This document shows, piece by piece, positions 7,060 to 56,256 of a stretch of DNA of 64,000 nucleotides (the first letter of the stretch is position 1; each line of letters starts with the position of its first letter). Made by a program: the position numbers and the translations under genes. The notes under the pieces are model-generated. The model ran no database searches and had not been told where the DNA came from. It was given only the letters and a program-made list of their open reading frames with translations. The DNA comes from Thioalkalivibrio sp. XN279 (lineage in GTDB: Bacteria; Pseudomonadota; Gammaproteobacteria; Steroidobacterales; XN24): NCBI RefSeq assembly GCF_011089885.1, contig NZ_JAANBD010000028.1:62001-126000 (forward strand), read 5' to 3'.

Positions 7060-7183
7060 GTTGTACTCCTTCGGGTTAGGCCTCCACGCATCCCACCCGG
7101 CAACCCCTGTCCACTCGGGAAAGAAGGCACCCAGCCGGGCGTGACGATGCGTGTGTGGGATTAATTGCGATTAAGGCGCGCGC

Positions 7184-41516: not shown

Positions 41517-44500
41517 TCAGGCGAGCTTGAGCTGTGGACGGCCGCTGCGCGTAGCCAGGCGGGGGAAGCGCTCCACGGAGGCGGGGGCGGCGATGTGGTA
41601 GCCCTGCACGAACTCGACGCCGATCTTCTCCAGCACTTCGAGCGCCTGGCGCGACTCGACGTGCTCCGCGATCATGCGGATGCCCATCGCCTTCCCCACC
41701 CGGTGCATGGCGTCGACCATGCACTGGTGCACGTGGTTCGAGTTGATGTTGCGCACGAAGTTACCGTCGATCTTGATGTAATCGACCGGCAGGTTCTGCA
41801 GGTAACTGAAGGACGACAGGCCGTTGCCGAAGTCGTCCAGCGAGAATTCGCAGCCGCGCGCCTTGAGCTCGTGCATGAAGTGCGCCGCACGCTCCAGGCG
41901 CTGGATGGCGGCTGTCTCGGTGATCTCGAAGCAGATGGTGCCCGGCGCGGGCTGGTACTCGTCGATGGCCTGGATCACGAACTCGAGGAACTTGTCGTCG
42001 TTCAGCGAGGTGCCGGAGAGGTTGATGGCGAGCAGGTAGCCTTCCTGGTCGTAGCCCTGCTCCGGCCGGAACGCCAGCGTCTCCAGCGCCTGCCGCACGA
42101 CCCAGCGGTCTACCACCGGCATCATGTTGTAGCGCTCGGCGGCGGGGATGAAGGCATTCGGCGGCACCATGCGCCCGTTCTCGTCGCGCATGCGCACCAA
42201 CAGCTCGTAGTGGCCGCGGCGGTCGGGGTTGTCGCCGATCGGCACGATGGGCTGGAAGTACAGCTCGAGGCGGTCGTCGTCGATGGCCCGGGTCACGCGC
42301 GACACCCACTGCATCTCGGCATGGCGTTCCGGCGCCGCGCCCTGCTGGTAGACGTGCACGCGGTTGCGGCCCAGGTCCTTGGCGGAGTAACAGGCCACGT
42401 CGGCGGCCGAGAGCAGGCTCTCGATGTTGTCGGTGTCGGCGTCTATGGCGACCAGGCCGATGGAGGCGCCGATCTCGAAGGACGCATCCTTGGCCACGAA
42501 GCGATAACTGCGGATGGCGGCGCGCATGTCGTCGGCAATCTCGATGGCGCGATCCAGCGAGCACTGCTCCAGCAGCACGCCGAACTCGTCGCCGCCGAGG
42601 CGCGCCACGGTATCCGAATTGCGCACCAGGCCGCGAATGAGCGACGTGATCTGTTTCAACAGGTGGTCGCCCGCGGTATGGCCGCAGGTGTCGTTGACCA
42701 CCTTGAACTGGTCGAGGTCGATGTACAGCAGCACGTGCTCCGCGCCGGACTTCGCCGAGGCCAGCGCGTTCTCCAGCCGCAGCTCGAACTCGCGGCGGTT
42801 GATCAGGCCCGTGAGCGAATCGTGCGCCGCGTGGTGCGCCAGCTGGCGGCGCAGCTGCCGCTCCTTGCTGACGTCGTGCACCACCAGCACCGCGCCGGCG
42901 AGCCGGCCGCCGCTGTCGCGGATCGGCGCGGCCGAATCCTGGATCGGGATCTCGCGCCCGTCGCGAGAAATGAGCACGGAATGCTGGCCGACTTCCGTCA
43001 CCCGTCCCTCGCGCAGGGAAACCTCGGCCGGGTTTTCCAGCGAGTGGCCGTGCGTCTCGTGCCGCAGCATGATGATCTCGCGCACCGGCCGGCCGCGCGC
43101 GTCGGCCAGCTTCCAGCCGGTCAGGGTCTCGGCCACCGGGTTCAGGTAGTCGACGACGCCTTCGTTATCCGTGGTGATGACGCCGTCGGCGATGGAGTTC
43201 AGCGTGACCTGGGCGCGCTCCTTCTCGGCGCGCACCTCGAGCTCGGCGCGCTTGCGCTCGGTGATGTCGGACAGCGTGCCCTCGTGGCCGATGATCTTGC
43301 CGTGCTCGTCGTAGATGGTGCGGGCGTTCTCCAGCACCACGATCTCGCGCCCGTCCTTGCGGCGCAGGCGCAGCTCGGCGTTGCGCAGGTTGCCTTCGCG
43401 GTTGAGGGCCTCGACGAACACCGCGCGCTCCTCCGGGTCGACGTAGAGCGCGGCGGTGCTGGGCAGTCCCATCAGCTCCGCCTCGGAGTCGTAGCCGAGC
43501 ATCTGCACCAGGCTCGGGTTGCAGGCGATGAACCGCCCGTCCACCGACACCTGGTAGACGCCGTCGAGCACTTTCTCGAACAGCCCGCGGTAGCGCCGCT
43601 CGCTGGCGCGCAGCGCGCGCTCGTCGCGCTTGCGTGCGATGGCGATACCGGCCAGCTGGATGATGCGATCGAACAGGTCGAGGTGATGCATCACCGAGAT
43701 GCGGCTGTTCTCCAGGTACAGGGCGAAGGCGCCGAGCACGCGGCCGTCCGCGTCGCGGATGGGCGCCGACCAGCAGCCTTCGTAGCCGTAACGCGCAGCC
43801 ACGGCGCGATGCCCGGCCCACACCGGCGCAGTGCCGATGTCCGCCATGCAGACCGTCTCGTCCAGCGAGCGCGAGGACGTCGACTGGTGCTCCAGCTCGG
43901 CGAAGCGGATACGTCCGACGGCCTCGCTGAACCCCTCGGGCACCCCGGGGGCCGTCACCAGTTCCAGCACCTCGGCGCCGTCCTCCAGCACGTAGAAGGC
44001 CGGATGCACGCTGGGCACGATGGCCATGATGGTTTCTGCGCCGGTGGCGAGGATCTCCGCCAGCGGGGCATTCGCCGCGATGCGCTCGAGCAGGCCGCGC
44101 TCGCCGGAAGACTGCAGCTCGGCGCGCTTGCGCTCGCGGATATCAATGATGGAGCCGCGGATCATGACCTTGCCGTCGAACCGCACCGGCACCAGGCGCA
44201 CCTCGCAGGGAATGATCTCTCCCCTGGCGTCACGGTGCAGCCATTCGACACAGTCGCCACGCCCGGCCAGGGCGTCGTCGATCACGGCACGCACGGCATC
44301 CTCGGAGCGGCGGCCGTCGCCCTGCTCGGGCGGGCTGAACTGGCCCGGGCCGCGCCCGATCAGGCGCGCGCGGCTGGTCTTGAACAGCTTCAGCGCCTTG
44401 TCGTTGGCGTCGATGAACTGGCCGTTGACCGGGTCGAGCACCACGATCGCTTCCGGCGCGCTGTCCACCAGCGAGCGGTAGCGGGCCTCGCTCTCGCGCA

Positions 44501-45065
44501 GGGCGCGCTCGGCCTCGAGCCGTTCGCTGTTGTCGCGCACGGCGAGCACGTAGATCTTGCGCCCTTCGACTTCCGTGGCGCTGGCCACCACGTCGAGCGG
44601 GAACTGGCGCCCGTCGGCGCGGCGGCCCTTGCCGGCGCTGGGCGACAAATCGAGCTGGGTGTTCTCGCGCACCCGCGACAGTTCCTTGAGGTAGTCGCCC
44701 TCGCGACGCGCGCCGGGCACCTCGATGATCAGGCCGAGGCTCTGGCCGACCAGCTCGTGGGCCTGGCGGCCGAACATGCGCTCGGCGGTGACGTTCATGG
44801 AACGGATGCGGCCGAGCGCGTCGACCGAGATGATCCCGTCCTTGATGTTGTCTAGCAGGACCTGCAGGCCGCTGTCGCCTTCGACTTCCAGCCGGGCGAC
44901 GGCCTTCTTCTCGGCGGCCGCGACGCGGTCCTCGAGCGCCATCAGCTCCTTCTCGTAGCGCCGGTACTGCTGGTGCACGGACTGCACCAGGGCCTCGAGG
45001 CGCGCCTTCTCAGGCGCCCCCTGGCCGAGGGCTGCGCGCAGCTGCTGTTGCAGTATCGGATGCAT
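41517..45065 (-). CDS. multi-sensor c-di-GMP enzyme (PAS-PAS-GAF-PAS-PAS-GGDEF-EAL)
   Basis: 1,182 residues without a clear transmembrane segment. It has an N-terminal coiled coil (about 20-60), PAS (about 65-185), PAS (195-320), GAF (about 330-480), two more PAS (490-740), GGDEF (about 745-915) and EAL (925-1175). GGDEF is intact in RLGGDEFGVLL, so cyclase activity is possible. The EAL motif itself reads YELLVRM, a tolerated variant, and the other catalytic segments are present: INLSGTSLND, CFEITETAA, LDDFGNGLSS, YIKIDGNFV, IAEHVES and FVQGYHIA. It could make or break down c-di-GMP, the ligand of the riboswitches at 49.5 kb. Confidence 0.9.
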   Translation of the reverse strand: MHPILQQQLRAALGQGAPEKARLEALVQSVHQQYRRYEKELMALEDRVAAAEKKAVARLEVEGDSGLQVLLDNIKDGIISVDALGRIRSMNVTAERMFGRQAHELVGQSLGLIIEVPGARREGDYLKELSRVRENTQLDLSPSAGKGRRADGRQFPLDVVASATEVEGRKIYVLAVRDNSERLEAERALRESEARYRSLVDSAPEAIVVLDPVNGQFIDANDKALKLFKTSRARLIGRGPGQFSPPEQGDGRRSEDAVRAVIDDALAGRGDCVEWLHRDARGEIIPCEVRLVPVRFDGKVMIRGSIIDIRERKRAELQSSGERGLLERIAANAPLAEILATGAETIMAIVPSVHPAFYVLEDGAEVLELVTAPGVPEGFSEAVGRIRFAELEHQSTSSRSLDETVCMADIGTAPVWAGHRAVAARYGYEGCWSAPIRDADGRVLGAFALYLENSRISVMHHLDLFDRIIQLAGIAIARKRDERALRASERRYRGLFEKVLDGVYQVSVDGRFIACNPSLVQMLGYDSEAELMGLPSTAALYVDPEERAVFVEALNREGNLRNAELRLRRKDGREIVVLENARTIYDEHGKIIGHEGTLSDITERKRAELEVRAEKERAQVTLNSIADGVITTDNEGVVDYLNPVAETLTGWKLADARGRPVREIIMLRHETHGHSLENPAEVSLREGRVTEVGQHSVLISRDGREIPIQDSAAPIRDSGGRLAGAVLVVHDVSKERQLRRQLAHHAAHDSLTGLINRREFELRLENALASAKSGAEHVLLYIDLDQFKVVNDTCGHTAGDHLLKQITSLIRGLVRNSDTVARLGGDEFGVLLEQCSLDRAIEIADDMRAAIRSYRFVAKDASFEIGASIGLVAIDADTDNIESLLSAADVACYSAKDLGRNRVHVYQQGAAPERHAEMQWVSRVTRAIDDDRLELYFQPIVPIGDNPDRRGHYELLVRMRDENGRMVPPNAFIPAAERYNMMPVVDRWVVRQALETLAFRPEQGYDQEGYLLAINLSGTSLNDDKFLEFVIQAIDEYQPAPGTICFEITETAAIQRLERAAHFMHELKARGCEFSLDDFGNGLSSFSYLQNLPVDYIKIDGNFVRNINSNHVHQCMVDAMHRVGKAMGIRMIAEHVESRQALEVLEKIGVEFVQGYHIAAPASVERFPRLATRSGRPQLKLA

Positions 45066-48741: not shown

Positions 48742-49347
48742 ATGAAAACCAGGACGATGATCTTTCAATGCATGCTCGCGGGCGTGGCGCTGCTGCTTTC
48801 CGGCCACGCGCTGGGCGCCTTGAGCCCGATCTCATGTGATGGGACGCCAGGCGCGAAGGCCAATACTGAGATGCCCGATTCATGCGCGATCGGGACGCTC
48901 AGCAACGATTCCGTCGCCTCCGAGACCAGCGCCGTCAATGGCCTCTTCCAGGGCGCGGGCGACCCGCTCCTGTTCGTCGGCAAATACGACCAGAAGACGG
49001 GGTATGACGAAGTGGTGCCGGGCTTCACGCTGAGCGCCGGCATATCTGACGACGAGGACTGGGATTATTTCTTCTCGCTGGTATCCATTTACTCCGGCAC
49101 GGTCGATTTCGCGCTCATGGTGAAGCAGCCGGACGAGAATAGCCCGCCGTTGAACGAGTATGTGGCCTACTACTGGAGCGGCCTCACCCTCGACATCGAA
49201 GGGTTCTACAACAGCTTCAAGGGCGATTACTCCCACATCTCCGCCTTCATCCGCGGCGTGGACGTGCCGGTGAGCGAGCCGGCGCCGTTGGCGCTGCTGG
49301 GATTAGGGCTGGTGGGCGTCGCGCTACTGCGTCGTCGAGCCACCTAG
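48742..49347 (+). CDS. PEP-CTERM sorting-domain protein 1
   Basis: 201 residues. Signal peptide (MIFQCMLAGVALLLSGHALG); C-terminal sorting signal SEPAPLALLGLGLVGVALLR followed by RRAT: a Pro-containing motif, one hydrophobic helix and a basic tail. Such proteins are recognised by an exosortase and displayed or released with exopolysaccharide. The body (GAGDPLLFVGKYDQKTGYDE) resembles other short Asp-rich PEP-CTERM proteins and has no known domain. A good ribosome site GGAGGG precedes ATG. Expression probably needs RpoN; a terminator follows. Confidence 0.85.
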   Translation: MKTRTMIFQCMLAGVALLLSGHALGALSPISCDGTPGAKANTEMPDSCAIGTLSNDSVASETSAVNGLFQGAGDPLLFVGKYDQKTGYDEVVPGFTLSAGISDDEDWDYFFSLVSIYSGTVDFALMVKQPDENSPPLNEYVAYYWSGLTLDIEGFYNSFKGDYSHISAFIRGVDVPVSEPAPLALLGLGLVGVALLRRRAT

Positions 49348-49370: not shown

Positions 49371-49407
49371 AAGCGCCTCCAGGAAATCCCTGGAGGCGCT
49401 TCTCTTT
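49371..49407 (+). terminator. rho-independent terminator after PEP-CTERM gene 1
   Basis: GCGCCTCCAGG (49373-49383), loop, CCTGGAGGCGC (49389-49399) followed by TTCTCTTT: an 11-bp perfect stem, 25 bases after the stop. Confidence 0.85.
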
Positions 49408-49487: not shown

Positions 49488-49517
49488 TTTGCTTTTCGGC
49501 GCGCCGCTCTGCTACTT
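49488..49517 (+). promoter_or_regulatory. sigma-70 promoter of the riboswitch-lipoprotein unit
   Basis: TTGCTT (49488-49493), 18-base spacer, TACTTT (49512-49517). It places the transcript start a few bases ahead of the first aptamer, as expected. Confidence 0.5.
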
Positions 49518-49531
49518 TCACCCTCGCTGAC

Positions 49532-49607
49532 AAGGGCAAACCCGCCGAAAGGTGGGGACGCAAAGCCACCGGTCTAAGGGACGAAGTCCTACGACAGCGG
49601 GGTTGCC
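49532..49607 (+). ncRNA. c-di-GMP-I riboswitch (GEMM), first of a tandem pair
   Basis: GEMM landmarks in order: GGCAAACCC, the GCCGAAAGGTGG stem with GAAA tetraloop, the invariant GGACGCAAAGCCACCGG, CTAAGGGACG, then CGACAGCGGGGTTGCC closing the P1 stem with the first segment. The A and G positions that contact c-di-GMP in characterised members are present. The class senses c-di-GMP and controls genes in cis. No other gene lies between 49608 and 49772. Confidence 0.9.
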
Positions 49608-49772
49608 AAGCTGAGGTGCCGCCACACTCCCCTCCCCCCGGCGCCCTCGACTCCCCAGGCAACCCCCTGCACAGACGCCGCCCAAGGACCACGCCTCGAG
49701 GCGGTTTGCCCTGTGTCGGTAAGACCCGGCGACGGGATCTGTGAAGACAACAGAAGTAGGGGCCACTGAAAA

Positions 49773-49849
49773 AGGCAAACTCACCGAAAGGTGAGGACGC
49801 AAAGCCACCGGTCTAAGGGACTCCAAATCCTACGATAGCGGGGCTGCCA
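49773..49849 (+). ncRNA. c-di-GMP-I riboswitch (GEMM), second of a tandem pair
   Basis: Same order as the first aptamer: GGCAAACTC, CACCGAAAGGTG stem, GGACGCAAAGCCACCGG, CTAAGGGACT, then CGATAGCGGGGCTGCC. The two aptamers are about 240 bases apart and both look complete, so a two-site, more digital c-di-GMP response is possible. The lipoprotein gene begins 176 bases downstream. Confidence 0.9.
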
Positions 49850-49999
49850 GGAATCATGGAAAGAATCGGCACACAATTGAGGCTGACACACCGGCAACGG
49901 TTCAGCAGCCACTTTCCAAGCCCGGCGCGTTCTCGCCGGCGCAGCACGACGCTACGCCATACGCACTGCACTGCCTCCCGTGAGTTGAACTTTTCCGTG

Positions 50000-50030
50000 G
50001 CCATGTTGCGAAGCGAGGTTTCGCCATGGC
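50000..50030 (+). promoter_or_regulatory. translation-control hairpin covering SD and AUG
   Basis: GCCATG (50000-50005) pairs with CATGGC (50025-50030), and GCGAA (50008-50012) pairs with TTCGC (50020-50024). The Shine-Dalgarno GAGG (50015-50018) is in the loop and the AUG (50026-50028) in the outer stem. It could be the output switch of the tandem riboswitch; an alternative structure was not computed. Confidence 0.6.
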
Positions 50031-51888
50031 TATTCGGACCGAACATGTAAAATCAGCGCTCGGCGCGCTGGCCGTCTCTCTCCTGATGACCGTCGTTGGT
50101 TGCGGCGGTGAGGACGGCGGCGGGACTGGCAGCCTCATTTCCTCCGTTGCCAACCCGCCGCCGTCGGGCGTGAACCCCGACGAGATTTACGAGACCCGCG
50201 TCACCGGCAGCGTCGGCGATGGGCCGATCGTGGGCGCACGCATGCGGGCCCGCTCCAGCTCCGGGCAGTTGCTGCTGGAGACCGAAAGCAGCTCCACCGC
50301 CGATTACGACATCGTCATCAAGGCGCGCGGCAAAGACTACGCGCTGACAATAGAAGCGGACCAGGGCATCGACCTGGTGACCGGCATGGCGCCGGACTTC
50401 CGGCTCGTGACCGCGATCTCGCGCCCGAACAACCGCACCGTCAGCAACCTGAACCCCTTCACCACGCTGATCTTCGGCGCCGCCCAACGCGCCGGCGGTC
50501 TCAACGACACCAACGTAGCGACGGCCCGAGAGGCCGTGGTCAAGCGCTACGGCTTCGGCCTCGACGCTGCGATCGTCCCGGATCCCGCGGAAACCCCGAT
50601 TGACGAGAACAACGTCCACGTCATCGTCAAGACCAGCGAAACGCTTGGCGAAATGATACGCCGCACTCGCGACGCCATGGTCGTCACCGGCGCCAACATC
50701 GACGGCGACACCGTGGTGGACCGCCTCGCCGCCGACCTGGTCGACGGCTGGATCGACGGCCAGGGCGCCTCGGGCGTCGACGCCCGCACGGCCGCGGTGG
50801 CGAACGTGGCGAGCGCCGCCGTGCTGCTGCAGGCCATGACCAATCGGCTGCACGTGTACGGTTACGATGCGACGACGGCGATGGACAGTGCCATCCAGCA
50901 GGTGCGTCCCGATACCCCCGCCGCAAACAACAGCGCGAACGTTGCCATCCCCGCCTCCGCCCTCGAGCAGGCGATGCGCTCGCTGCGGGCCGCGAAGGTG
51001 CTGAGCGACGACCCGCGTATCGACGAGACCATCGTCGTGCTGCAGGCCGTGGCGCCTGGCGCGCTGCCCGCCGACCTGGCCGCCGCCCTGCCCGCCGAGA
51101 TCGACACTGTGCTGGAAGTGGCGACGCTCGACGCGGCCTATGCCGACGAGACCCAGCTGAGCGCCATCAATGCCGCCGGCCGCAGCGAAGCCCCAACGAA
51201 CAATACCGAGCCCGAGCCGGACCCGAACGAGTCCACCGATCCGACCGATCCGGGCGACCCCACGGATCCTGGCGACCCGGCCCCAGAGCCCGACCCGGAA
51301 CCGGCTCCTGAGCCTGATCCGAATCCGACGCCGGCACCGGCGAACAACCCGCCGACCATCTCCGGCACGCCGGGCACCAGCGTCGAAGTCGGCACGGCAT
51401 GGAGCTTCCAGCCCACCGCCTCCGACCCGGATGGCGACGCCCTGACTTTCTCGGTGAGCAACAAGCCGGCCTGGCTGAGCTTCGACAGCAACACCGGCCG
51501 CCTGTCCGGCACGCCGAGCTCGAGCAACGTCGGCACGCACCTGCACATCATCATCAGCGTCACCGACGGGCAGCAGAGCGTGAGCCTGCCGGCCTTCGAC
51601 CTGGTGGTGAGCGAGGCCCCGCCGCCGGCGACCGGCTTCGCCAAGCTCAGCTGGACCGCGCCGACCGAGCGCGAAGACGGCACGCCGCTCGAGGGCGTCG
51701 GCCACTTCACCATCTATTACGGCACCAGCAGCAGCAACCTCAGCCAGTCGGTGCGCGTCGACGGTTCGCTGACGAGCCACCAGATCGACGACCTGCCGGC
51801 CGGCACCTGGTACTTCGCCGTGACGGCGACCGACACCGCCGGCCTGGAAAGCGCCAAGTCGGCCGTGGCGAGCAAGACGATCGGATAA
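50026..51888 (+). CDS. c-di-GMP-riboswitch-controlled lipoprotein with Ig-like and FN3 domains
   Basis: 620 residues. Signal ALGALAVSLLMTVVGC makes a lipobox with Cys26. Residues about 55-380 are a helical and beta region (GDGPIVGARMRARSSSGQLL resembles a carboxypeptidase-regulatory-like fold at its start) of unknown role. About 385-440 is an acidic Pro/Asp/Glu linker (DPTDPGDPTDPGDPAPEPDP). Then come a He_PIG/cadherin-like domain (SDPDGDALTFSVSNKPAWLS) and a C-terminal FN3 domain (LSWTAPTEREDGTPLEGVGH). The FN3 resembles the one in the lipoprotein at 53260. ATG 50026 has GAGG at 7 bases. Likely a surface adhesin or matrix protein. Confidence 0.85.
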   Translation: MAIRTEHVKSALGALAVSLLMTVVGCGGEDGGGTGSLISSVANPPPSGVNPDEIYETRVTGSVGDGPIVGARMRARSSSGQLLLETESSSTADYDIVIKARGKDYALTIEADQGIDLVTGMAPDFRLVTAISRPNNRTVSNLNPFTTLIFGAAQRAGGLNDTNVATAREAVVKRYGFGLDAAIVPDPAETPIDENNVHVIVKTSETLGEMIRRTRDAMVVTGANIDGDTVVDRLAADLVDGWIDGQGASGVDARTAAVANVASAAVLLQAMTNRLHVYGYDATTAMDSAIQQVRPDTPAANNSANVAIPASALEQAMRSLRAAKVLSDDPRIDETIVVLQAVAPGALPADLAAALPAEIDTVLEVATLDAAYADETQLSAINAAGRSEAPTNNTEPEPDPNESTDPTDPGDPTDPGDPAPEPDPEPAPEPDPNPTPAPANNPPTISGTPGTSVEVGTAWSFQPTASDPDGDALTFSVSNKPAWLSFDSNTGRLSGTPSSSNVGTHLHIIISVTDGQQSVSLPAFDLVVSEAPPPATGFAKLSWTAPTEREDGTPLEGVGHFTIYYGTSSSNLSQSVRVDGSLTSHQIDDLPAGTWYFAVTATDTAGLESAKSAVASKTIG

Positions 51889-52326: not shown

Positions 52327-52881
52327 ATGAAGAGCCTTCGCACCCTGGGAATCGCCTGCGCACTGACGTTCGCCGCATCGGCCGCACACGCCGCGGTCAT
52401 CGTGGACCTCAACTCCACCACCACCAACGGCCCGAACGACATCAACAACGGCGTGACGTTCAACACCGCGCTGACTGACATCATCGATGTCACCCAGATC
52501 GGTATCCTGGACGGCGGCGCCTACGACGCCTGGAACGCCTGGGGGCGGAACGAGAACTGCAACAACGACGGCATCTGCACCAAGGGCTGGATCAACAACT
52601 GGTCCTACTTCATCAACGGCGACACCAGCACCGCCACGCTGGTCTCGGATGGCGTGCGATACGCGACGGCGGCCGCGGCGCTGGCCAACGCGGTGCCGGT
52701 CGCACCATTCACCGGCATTTCCAGCATCACGTTCTTCATCTCGGACAGCTATTACAAAGACAACGTCGGTGGGATCTCGCTGAGCGTCGATGTCATGCCG
52801 GCCAAGGTGCCGGAGCCGGCCACCCTCGCCCTGCTCGGCGCCGGGCTGCTGGGCTTCGGGCTGCGGCGGCGGAAGAACTGA
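52327..52881 (+). CDS. PEP-CTERM sorting-domain protein 2
   Basis: 184 residues. Signal peptide KSLRTLGIACALTFAASAAH, cleavage near AHA. C-terminal VPEPATLALLGAGLLGFGLR then RRKN is a textbook PEP-CTERM signal. The body (AWNAWGRNENCNNDGICTKG, WINNWSYFINGD) has two Cys and no domain I recognise. ATG 52327 is preferred over ATG 52321 because GGAGA lies 8 bases before it but only 2 before the earlier one. Under a sigma-54 promoter; a terminator follows. Confidence 0.9.
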   Translation: MKSLRTLGIACALTFAASAAHAAVIVDLNSTTTNGPNDINNGVTFNTALTDIIDVTQIGILDGGAYDAWNAWGRNENCNNDGICTKGWINNWSYFINGDTSTATLVSDGVRYATAAAALANAVPVAPFTGISSITFFISDSYYKDNVGGISLSVDVMPAKVPEPATLALLGAGLLGFGLRRRKN

Positions 52882-52951: not shown

Positions 52952-53259
52952 GATTTGCGCAAATCCCGCGCAACCCGCTCGATGGCCGTCGGGACGGAAC
53001 GGCGCTGCCGCCTTTCAGTTTTACATATTCTGACCAAGCTGATCCGTGCGATAGCTCACCAAGACTCTGAACCCGAGCGTCCGAATCTCGACAAATAATC
53101 AGGTTAATTCTCCAACCAGCTGTTTCCAAACGATCTACCCGAGCCTAGACAGCCAGTGATCGACGCTATGTACGCAAGAAACAGTTGTTTGACTTCTCCG
53201 GCGCTGGTCCAATCCGCGGCTTTTCCACGCCCGACAACCGCTGGAGAACCCCCGAGCCT

Positions 53260-53643
53260 ATGTACCAATCTACAGCCCGGATCTTGCTCTTCCCTGCCCT
53301 GCTGCTGGCGCTACTGTCCCTCCTCGCCTGCGACGCCGATATCCTCCCCCCTGAAACCGACCTCGCGACCCACAACCCGACCGGGACGGGCAACGCCACG
53401 CTGAGCTGGCAGCCGCCGACCGAGCGCGTGGATGGCTCGCCGCTGACGAAGCTGTCCGGCTACCGGATCCTCTACGGCCAGCAGTCGCGCCGCTACAGCT
53501 ACAGCATCGAGATCACGAACCCGGGCCTGACGCGCTACTTCATCGACGGCCTGAGTGAGGGGTGGTGGTATTTCGCCATCGTGGCGATTGACAGCCAGGG
53601 GCTGGCGAGCGCGGAGTCGGCGGAGGCGAGCACGAGGATCTGA
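53260..53643 (+). CDS. small FN3-domain lipoprotein
   Basis: 127 residues. Signal RILLFPALLLALLSLLAC has a lipobox with lipidated Cys. One fibronectin type III domain fills the rest: NATLSWQPPTERVDGSPLTK, YRILYGQQSRRYSYSIEI, GLSEGWWYFAIVAIDSQGLA. It closely resembles the C-terminal FN3 of the riboswitch-controlled protein (shared S-W-x-x-P-T-E-R-x-D-G). I chose ATG 53260 at the signal peptide; an earlier ATG at 53185 has no conserved content. Probably a surface or matrix protein of the same system. Confidence 0.78.
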   Translation: MYQSTARILLFPALLLALLSLLACDADILPPETDLATHNPTGTGNATLSWQPPTERVDGSPLTKLSGYRILYGQQSRRYSYSIEITNPGLTRYFIDGLSEGWWYFAIVAIDSQGLASAESAEASTRI

Positions 53644-55358: not shown

Positions 55359-56066
55359 TTAGGCAACCCGGCGCCGACGCGCCATGCCAAAGCCGACCAG
55401 GCCAAGACCCAACAGGGCCAGAGTGCCCGGCTCCGGCACCACAAACGTTCCGTCGGTTATGCTCAAACGCACGACGAGATCATCGTGGTTATCGTCATTC
55501 TGGGCGCCACCGTCATCGAGGAACAGGAAAACGGAGGTTCCAGAACGGCGGGCACCATCAGTCGTATCGGTGTCTAAGACGTAATTGTCGTCAAACGTGA
55601 TAAAGAAGTTCGGATTCGCGTTCAAATCATCATTGTTCGCGCCGTTGCAGAACGAAATAGCGCCCGAATTCACGCTGAAACAGAAGTCCAAAAGCCCCGG
55701 ACCGGCCAGCGTTGTATCCGACTCAAGCGCATCGCTCGAACCAAGGATGCCATCGGCATCAGCAAATGTCGCCGTTTCACTACCCGTGTGCGTGAAGCTC
55801 ACATCATCACCGAAGGTGAAGCTGTTGGTGAACCCCGCCTCGGCACCAAAGATCTCAACCGTAATGGTTATCGGTCCGCCGCTGCTGAGGTAAAGGTTGC
55901 CGCCGTACCACCCTTGCACCTCTCCAATCCCGTACTGCTCGAGAAAATCGTTGGTTTCGCCAGGCTGGGGGATCGTCCCGGTGTAAAGGGCGGCGCTGGC
56001 GGGAGCGGCCGCAAGCGCTACCGTGGCCAGGAGACCGCTGGCGATAATTGATCTAAAAACTTTCAT
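55359..56066 (-). CDS. PEP-CTERM sorting-domain protein 3
   Basis: 235 residues. Signal peptide FRSIIASGLLATVALAAAPA with cleavage near ASA. The C-terminal VPEPGTLALLGLGLVGFGMA then RRRRVA is a canonical PEP-CTERM signal. The middle is Asp/Asn/Gly-rich (FDDNYVLDTDTTDGARRSG) and resembles the DVUA0089-type beta-sandwich seen in other PEP-CTERM proteins (low certainty). I chose ATG 56066 with AGAGGA upstream; the longer frame starts upstream of the promoter. Under sigma-54 control by sequence. Confidence 0.9.
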   Translation of the reverse strand: MKVFRSIIASGLLATVALAAAPASAALYTGTIPQPGETNDFLEQYGIGEVQGWYGGNLYLSSGGPITITVEIFGAEAGFTNSFTFGDDVSFTHTGSETATFADADGILGSSDALESDTTLAGPGLLDFCFSVNSGAISFCNGANNDDLNANPNFFITFDDNYVLDTDTTDGARRSGTSVFLFLDDGGAQNDDNHDDLVVRLSITDGTFVVPEPGTLALLGLGLVGFGMARRRRVA

Positions 56067-56123
56067 GTTGTCGTCCTCTGGATGGTTAACTTGCGACGAT
56101 TCAAAGCGCCGTGCCTGAAGTAA

Positions 56124-56139
56124 TGCAAGCCCCATGCCA
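56124..56139 (-). promoter_or_regulatory. sigma-54 promoter of PEP-CTERM gene 3
   Basis: On the minus strand TGGCATGGGGCTTGCA, matching TGGCACG-N4-TTGCA with one transition; followed by T. It lies 57 bases ahead of the start codon. Confidence 0.82.
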
Positions 56140-56202
56140 AGTCCATACAACAGCAATTCGAACAACAGGTTACCACTGCCTCGCCCCATGACGCGAAAGT
56201 CC

Positions 56203-56231
56203 TGGTGCCGGATATGTAAGAGAAACCGACA
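56203..56231 (-). promoter_or_regulatory. upstream direct repeat/dyad of PEP-CTERM gene 3 (proximal)
   Basis: On the minus strand TGTCGGTTTCTCTTACA then TATCCGGCACCA, 63 bases ahead of the sigma-54 site. It has the TGTC-N9-TACA geometry and CCGGCA end of the elements at the other PEP-CTERM genes. Confidence 0.65.
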
Positions 56232-56256
56232 GCCTTTCCCGTCCATCTTAAGTTAT

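Follow-up and report, generated by a model that had tools for sequence, protein, structure and literature searches.

Tandem c-di-GMP-I riboswitches as such are a known kind of element. One survey reports 347 doublets and 12 triplets (PMC9481103), and the response of a characterized triplet, Bc3-5 of Bacillus thuringiensis, is described as more digital (PMC4759541). As portrayed in these accounts (PMC4759541; survey PMC9481103), Bc3-5 shares with the locus studied here the presence of at least two complete serial c-di-GMP-I aptamers in one 5′ UTR before surface-protein genes. The two differ in their expression platforms, which are described as terminators in Bc3-5, whereas the linker at our locus has no intrinsic terminator on the plus strand, and a leader open reading frame (ORF) and a closed start-codon hairpin come after its last aptamer. 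Translational control by a c-di-GMP-I aptamer is described for Vc2 of Vibrio cholerae (PMC9262584). Vc2 is, however, a single aptamer and an OFF switch that depends on P1, and the sections of that report drawn on here do not mention a leader ORF; according to the same source, ON and OFF kinds of c-di-nucleotide switches are both known.

The closest precedent that we found for our locus is the B12 riboswitch of M. tuberculosis ppe2, which resembles it in being followed by an out-of-frame upstream ORF (uORF) overlapping the main start (PMC11260477). As reported there, main expression requires translation of this uORF, uPPE2, and stops shifted past the main start lowered expression. The ppe2 element differs in its ligand and aptamer, in the AUGA overlap between the two frames, and in having no Shine-Dalgarno (SD) sequence for the main gene. 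In Salmonella, mgtQ, a short ORF before mgtB, influences alternative stem-loops by which translation of the following gene is controlled, but it is described as sitting between two genes and not after a riboswitch aptamer (PMC8092293). The literature searched, mostly open-access, contained no example of a c-di-GMP riboswitch with a uORF or leader relay, which is weak evidence of novelty. Such a relay, in which the second aptamer gates a leader ORF and the ribosomes translating the leader open the start-codon hairpin, is the reading that we prefer for our locus, with a probability of roughly 0.4.

Two aptamers upstream of a lipoprotein-like gene

The window, that is, the whole 64,000-nucleotide stretch of DNA analysed, carries two c-di-GMP-I aptamers on the plus strand, upstream of and on the same strand as the lipoprotein-like gene at 50026–51888, and hence in a 5′ UTR position. 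Aptamer 1 lies at 49525–49610 (88.3 bits, E 3.9e-16) and aptamer 2 at 49764–49851 (87.8 bits, E 5e-16). Both matches span the entire Rfam c-di-GMP-I covariance model, RF01051, and are far over its gathering score of 35 bits. Two aptamers of one class thus occupy one leader, as in a tandem riboswitch. The covariance search bears out the two complete GEMM aptamers proposed in a preliminary description of this DNA, with both, rather than only one, scoring above threshold. Their positions agree as well, although the boundaries given by the model are a few bases wider on both, and GGACGCAAAGCCACCGG, put forward as the invariant sequence common to the two, is present in each.

The window's genome contains 8 RF01051 matches, and the seven genomes of its family (this genome and G001 to G006) contain 59. 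When a doublet is defined as two RF01051 matches on one strand with a gap of less than 300 nt, exactly one doublet per genome was counted by eye in all seven, and in every case it precedes a lipoprotein-like gene, in line with the arrangement first proposed for the window. Matches were found in 67 of the 97 genomes of the order; the 60 that lie outside the family hold 294 matches, among which five doublets were counted (G021, G029, G036, G052, and G064). For several relatives' aptamers the best score came from the sister family c-di-GMP-I-GGC (RF03167). Mean identity is 0.85 among first aptamers, 0.82 among second aptamers, 0.80 between first and second aptamers of different genomes, and 0.85 between the two within a genome. 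Directly 5′ of aptamer 1, a weak candidate promoter (TTGCTT, 18 nt, TACTTT; 49489–49518, plus strand) was picked out by eye from the stretches upstream of the doublets; a consensus scan returned no promoter.

Strands that may compete with the aptamers

The linker between the two aptamers contains a C-rich, G-poor tract (49622–49666, plus strand) in which the fraction of C minus that of G is 0.51 over 45 nt. Values of at least 0.31 over 45 nt occur in the linkers of all seven family doublets versus 5 of 44 single-aptamer loci (median 0.19, maximum 0.40), and the linkers of two doublets outside the family, G029 and G052, reach 0.13 and 0.29. By its composition, the tract is a possible Rho loading site. 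Its end, GGCAACCCC (49658–49666, plus strand), forms a minimum-energy helix with the aptamer-1 3′ strand 49599–49607 in the ligand-free fold. Further along, the strand 49692–49720 (plus) is antisense to the 5′ half of aptamer 1 (49526–49554), with a duplex energy z-score of −4.66 and none of 300 shuffles as low. The corresponding values in the congeners G001 and G002 are −5.82 and −4.73, again with 0 of 300 shuffles each. Over nine doublets the test falls below p 0.05 in four (the window, G001, G002, and G003), and 44 single-aptamer loci give a mean z of −0.08 with 3 of 44 below 0.05.

In a growing transcript, the native pairs of aptamer 1 have a predicted probability of 0.15–0.47 without ligand, which drops to at most 0.01 after 110 nt of linker. 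Keeping aptamer 1 folded would cost 17–25 kcal/mol (window, G001, and G002), a price that points to a decision made during transcription. The signal for a competing strand is strong after aptamer 1 and weak after aptamer 2, for which the antisense test of the 5′ half gives z −2.20, −1.77, and −1.20 (p 0.030, 0.047, and 0.107) in the window, G001, and G002, with three of nine doublets below 0.05. In the ligand-free fold, GTGAGTT (49980–49986, plus strand) makes a minimum-energy helix with the aptamer-2 strand 49778–49784. The native pairing of aptamer 2 in the window falls from 0.77 to 0.49 between 320 and 350 nt, before GUGAGUU emerges at about 370 nt; another strand must therefore be involved, and GUGAGUU is not the sole competitor. 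Since each aptamer is followed by a strand that may undo it, binding is probably decided while the transcript is being made.

The enrichment of C over G in all seven family linkers and the strong antisense strand after aptamer 1 in the three congeners also suit a purely transcriptional mode of control, in which Rho would load onto the C-rich linker in the absence of ligand on aptamer 1 (or in its presence), the hairpin only setting a low basal level of translation. An intrinsic terminator in the linker was rejected, as a scan found none on the plus strand of the leader, linker included. To the eye, moreover, the C-rich loop does not change clearly between folded states, and composition cannot prove Rho sites. 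We regard control of this kind alone as quite unlikely. In the leader relay, which we favour, aptamer 1 and the C-rich linker most likely keep a part of this role by setting the amount of transcript that continues, perhaps through Rho.

The start-codon hairpin

The lipoprotein start lies in a hairpin at 49994–50038 (plus strand) with a predicted energy of −24.1 kcal/mol; shuffled sequences average −13.0 (z −4.0), and none of 200 reached the same stability. It consists of the helices 49994–49997/50035–50038, 49998–50005/50025–50032, and 50008–50014/50018–50024 with a 2-nt bulge, is almost the same in G001 and G002, and stays closed at 50 °C in the model. Among 108 c-di-GMP-I loci, the window, G001, and G002 have the most extreme start-codon fold z-scores. 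The bulged hairpin thus folds much as the preliminary description had it, with the AUG (50026–50028) in the stem. The SD, GAGGT (50015–50019, plus strand), which had been placed in the loop, is there in part: three of its bases form the triloop and the last two are paired.

The claim that the aptamers feed this hairpin fared worse. When none, one, or both of the aptamers are constrained to the Rfam fold, the predicted probability that the AUG is unpaired is 0.00–0.24 in the window, G001, and G002, in a thermodynamic model that is free of tertiary contacts and kinetics. Every occupancy state thus leaves the AUG paired. This model lends no support to a direct switch from aptamers to hairpin, and because the hairpin is closed in all four states in the three congeners, something other than the ligand must open it. 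As kinetics and tertiary contacts lie outside the model, we nevertheless keep a direct translational switch as an alternative. Aptamer 2 would compete with the block GUGAGUU...CUUUUCC just upstream of the hairpin, and the freed strand would become a standby site from which a ribosome captures the SD in the loop, with no part for the leader ORF. In its favour, the block is kept in the three genomes, the helix 49778–49784/49980–49986 appears in the ligand-free fold, SD bases lie in the triloop, and the antisense z-scores for aptamer 2 are −2.20, −1.77, and −1.20. Set against these are the pairing of the AUG in every state and the loss of aptamer-2 pairing before GUGAGUU has been transcribed, which makes another strand responsible. 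On balance a direct switch appears unlikely, and a relay through the leader ORF is the reading pursued below.

One SD-sequestering design for the whole family was looked for and not found, as the genomes differ. At the doublet locus of G005 (L075, G005:C5), an 11-nt stretch after aptamer 2 is, by eye, a perfect complement of the sequence around the SD of the lipoprotein ortholog, and the folding model pairs this SD in all aptamer states. Judged on its complementarity, this predicted anti-SD is a different way to hide the lipoprotein start.

A leader ORF running from aptamer 2 into the lipoprotein gene

An ATG at 49856, 4 nt past the end of aptamer 2, opens a 64-codon leader ORF (49856–50050, plus strand) that is absent from the preliminary description. 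It runs in the +1 frame relative to the lipoprotein gene, crosses the hairpin out of frame with it, and ends at a TAA (50048–50050) 22 nt beyond the lipoprotein AUG. A 15-codon frame from the ATG at 50003, which was considered first, is the tail of this frame. As in ppe2, an out-of-frame uORF thus covers the main start, but in place of an AUGA overlap and a missing SD the window has an overlap of 22 nt and the SD GAGGT in the hairpin, so that it may work like ppe2 by a different design. The lowered expression of ppe2 with shifted stops counts against the 22-nt overlap, though the lipoprotein gene has its own SD. The ATGA overlap itself occurs at other c-di-GMP-I loci, for example at the G052 doublet.

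The leader is open in the three congeners with identical start offset and stop (64 codons in the window and G001, 63 in G002), and their alignment contains a single gap of exactly 3 nt. Between the window and G001, 45 of 56 peptide residues are identical, compared with 38.2 by random placement (p 0.0007), a null that takes no account of clustered changes. With local column permutation, the coding signal is z 2.8 (p 0.003) across 167 columns, and in the variable part the leader frame reaches z 3.6–3.8 versus 0.6–1.7 in the other two frames. One of 19 control frames (linker, minus strand) reaches z 3.1 and the true lipoprotein frame gives z 1.68; the coding signal is consequently suggestive and not proof. 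The peptide matches no Pfam family, and outside the genus it has no match at E ≤ 0.01 among 59 genomes. At the doublet locus, the leader is found in three of the seven family genomes, all of one genus, and the doublets of G003 to G006 have no leader at the aptamer edge. Its own SD is weak (AGGA close to the ATG), and in the folding model access to the leader start shows no consistent direction of change with aptamer state.

The leader frame could also be open by chance, and the conserved 50-nt block might then be the binding site of an RNA or protein that acts in trans to open the hairpin. Conservation of the block at base level would fit, as would the control frame at z 3.1 and the observation that frames are open in all three permuted sequences in 4.3% of trials. 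A search of the three genomes, however, found the block neither repeated nor strongly matched elsewhere and revealed no convincing antisense partner (best other match E 0.74), and this account leaves the excess of leaders at other loci unexplained. We consider it improbable.

The analysis establishes the aptamers, the antisense strand after aptamer 1, the hairpin, and the leader frame, which is conserved in the three congeners. In the relay that we propose, one transcript would carry two aptamers, each followed by a strand able to undo it, and aptamer 2 would gate translation of the 64-codon leader that starts just past its 3′ end. The lipoprotein start would stay locked in the hairpin, which the ligand does not open in the model, until ribosomes on the leader traverse it, uncovering the SD and AUG before they terminate 22 nt beyond this start codon, so that the lipoprotein would be made mainly when the leader is translated. 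Our guess is that c-di-GMP switches the lipoprotein ON, as a surface protein. If true, the relay would explain how translation can begin inside a hairpin of −24 kcal/mol.

Leader ORFs at other c-di-GMP-I loci

The two other doublets examined for leaders both contain one. In G052, of another family, it begins at the edge of the aptamer, has 64 codons, and ends in an ATGA shared with the gene start; in G029 it has 37 codons and stops 14 nt before the gene start. For a wider count, a leader had to begin between −4 and +12 nt relative to the aptamer end and, in a frame other than that of the next gene, to have its stop between −20 and +25 nt relative to that gene's start. The first set comprised 44 loci (35 single family loci and the nine doublets, with distances of 50–230 nt) after three were dropped, two for want of a usable main gene and one with an N. 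It contains 10 ATG leaders versus 2.07 expected (at most 7 in 1000 shuffles) and 13 ATG/GTG leaders versus 4.38 expected (at most 12 in shuffles), under criteria drawn up after examples had been seen by eye and with eight main starts set by hand, some where a leader had already been seen. For the second set, with criteria fixed beforehand and automatic main starts, 80 loci were chosen among the better of the 294 matches in other families, four of them in regions examined earlier, and 64 were eligible. Here, 6 ATG leaders were found versus 1.98 expected (p 0.014) and 13 ATG/GTG leaders versus 4.70 (0 of 500 shuffles). Under a stricter null, in which the start region is kept and the rest shuffled, the first set gives 10 versus 4.61 (ATG; 0 of 500) and 13 versus 6.92 (ATG/GTG; p 0.002), and the second 6 versus 3.43 (p 0.052) and 13 versus 7.78 (p 0.010). 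All of these counts include orthologous loci that are not independent.

ATGs cluster at offsets −1 to +4 from the aptamer end, with 16 in the 44 loci of the first set, where offsets 5–39 total 26, and 13 in the 80 loci of the second versus 4.15. P1 pairing itself may favour RTG at the aptamer edge. M23 peptidase-type genes are often preceded by a leader, at 5 of 7 loci in the family and at 11 of 15 other loci; Pfam confirms the type for two, and the rest were assigned by homology or N-terminal motif only. In 11 of these 16 cases, stop and gene start overlap as ATGA or GTGA. As a rule, start regions are no more stable at leader loci than elsewhere (p 0.60), though AUG pairing there is slightly higher (p 0.015).

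The relay is supported by the hairpin that stays closed in every state, by the leader shared by the three congeners with its coding signal, by the leaders of G052 and G029 and the excess at the 44 and 64 loci, and by the precedent of ppe2. The restriction of the leader at this locus to one genus, in three of seven family genomes, counts against it, as do the control frame at z 3.1, the z of 1.68 for the true lipoprotein frame, the p of 0.052 (ATG) and 0.010 (ATG/GTG) in the second set under the stricter null, the non-independence of orthologous loci, and a P1 that may favour RTG. The weak SD of the leader, the inconsistent access to its start, and the p of 0.60 for start-region stability weigh in the same direction. 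More tentatively still, we suggest that c-di-GMP-I riboswitches in this order of Gammaproteobacteria commonly act by such a relay and that the window is a sharpened lock with two serial aptamers and a ribosome-opened hairpin. The 3′ edge of the aptamer would supply the leader start codon, and the leader would span the expression platform and end at the start of the regulated gene; c-di-GMP would control translation of the leader, and the gene would follow by coupling. Were this true, part of a large riboswitch class would work via a step that we have not found described for c-di-GMP riboswitches in the literature searched, and seemingly featureless expression platforms could be re-read as leader ORFs.

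The lipoprotein-like gene and its surroundings

The gene at 50026–51888 (plus strand) encodes 620 residues with a lipobox-like N-terminus (by eye) and a He_PIG Ig domain (E 1.8e-13). Of its earlier designation as an Ig/FN3 lipoprotein, the Ig part is thereby upheld, while the FN3-like match at the C-terminus is sub-threshold. That the product is a surface matrix protein is a guess from its domains. The doublet-gene proteins of the window, G001, G002, G004, and G005 share their N-terminal part, the first residues of the G006 protein resemble those of G005, and the G003 gene encodes a different protein that has He_PIG. Of the 10 doublet proteins scanned from outside the window, G006 being excluded, 7 contain this domain (G001, G002, G003, G029, G036, G052, and G064), and it was not found in those of G004, G005 (Calx-beta), or G021. 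The window's genome encodes another He_PIG protein elsewhere, downstream of a lone c-di-GMP-I aptamer (L109, G000:C28:238208–239694).

Genes with PEP-CTERM motifs flank the lipoprotein gene at 48742–49344 (just below the Pfam cut-off), 52333–52878, and 55359–56246, and a small FN3-like lipoprotein is encoded at 53185–53640. After the upstream PEP-CTERM gene, a terminator-like hairpin with a T-rich tail (49373–49407) was seen by eye and is absent from the scan. About 4.5 kb upstream of the riboswitches, the minus strand encodes a large PAS/GAF/GGDEF/EAL protein (41517–45065), by its domains a possible local c-di-GMP enzyme. A t44 RNA (RF00127, 81 bits) is located at 7175–7075, also on the minus strand. 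The palindromic GGGTCAGACCC occurs in eight exact copies in the window (35538, 39445, 46989, 47215, 47794, 49427, 51986, and 54370) versus 0.02 expected, and the longer GGGGTCAGACCCC is matched 44 times across the genome versus 0 for a control; the two represent a repeat element found near gene ends.
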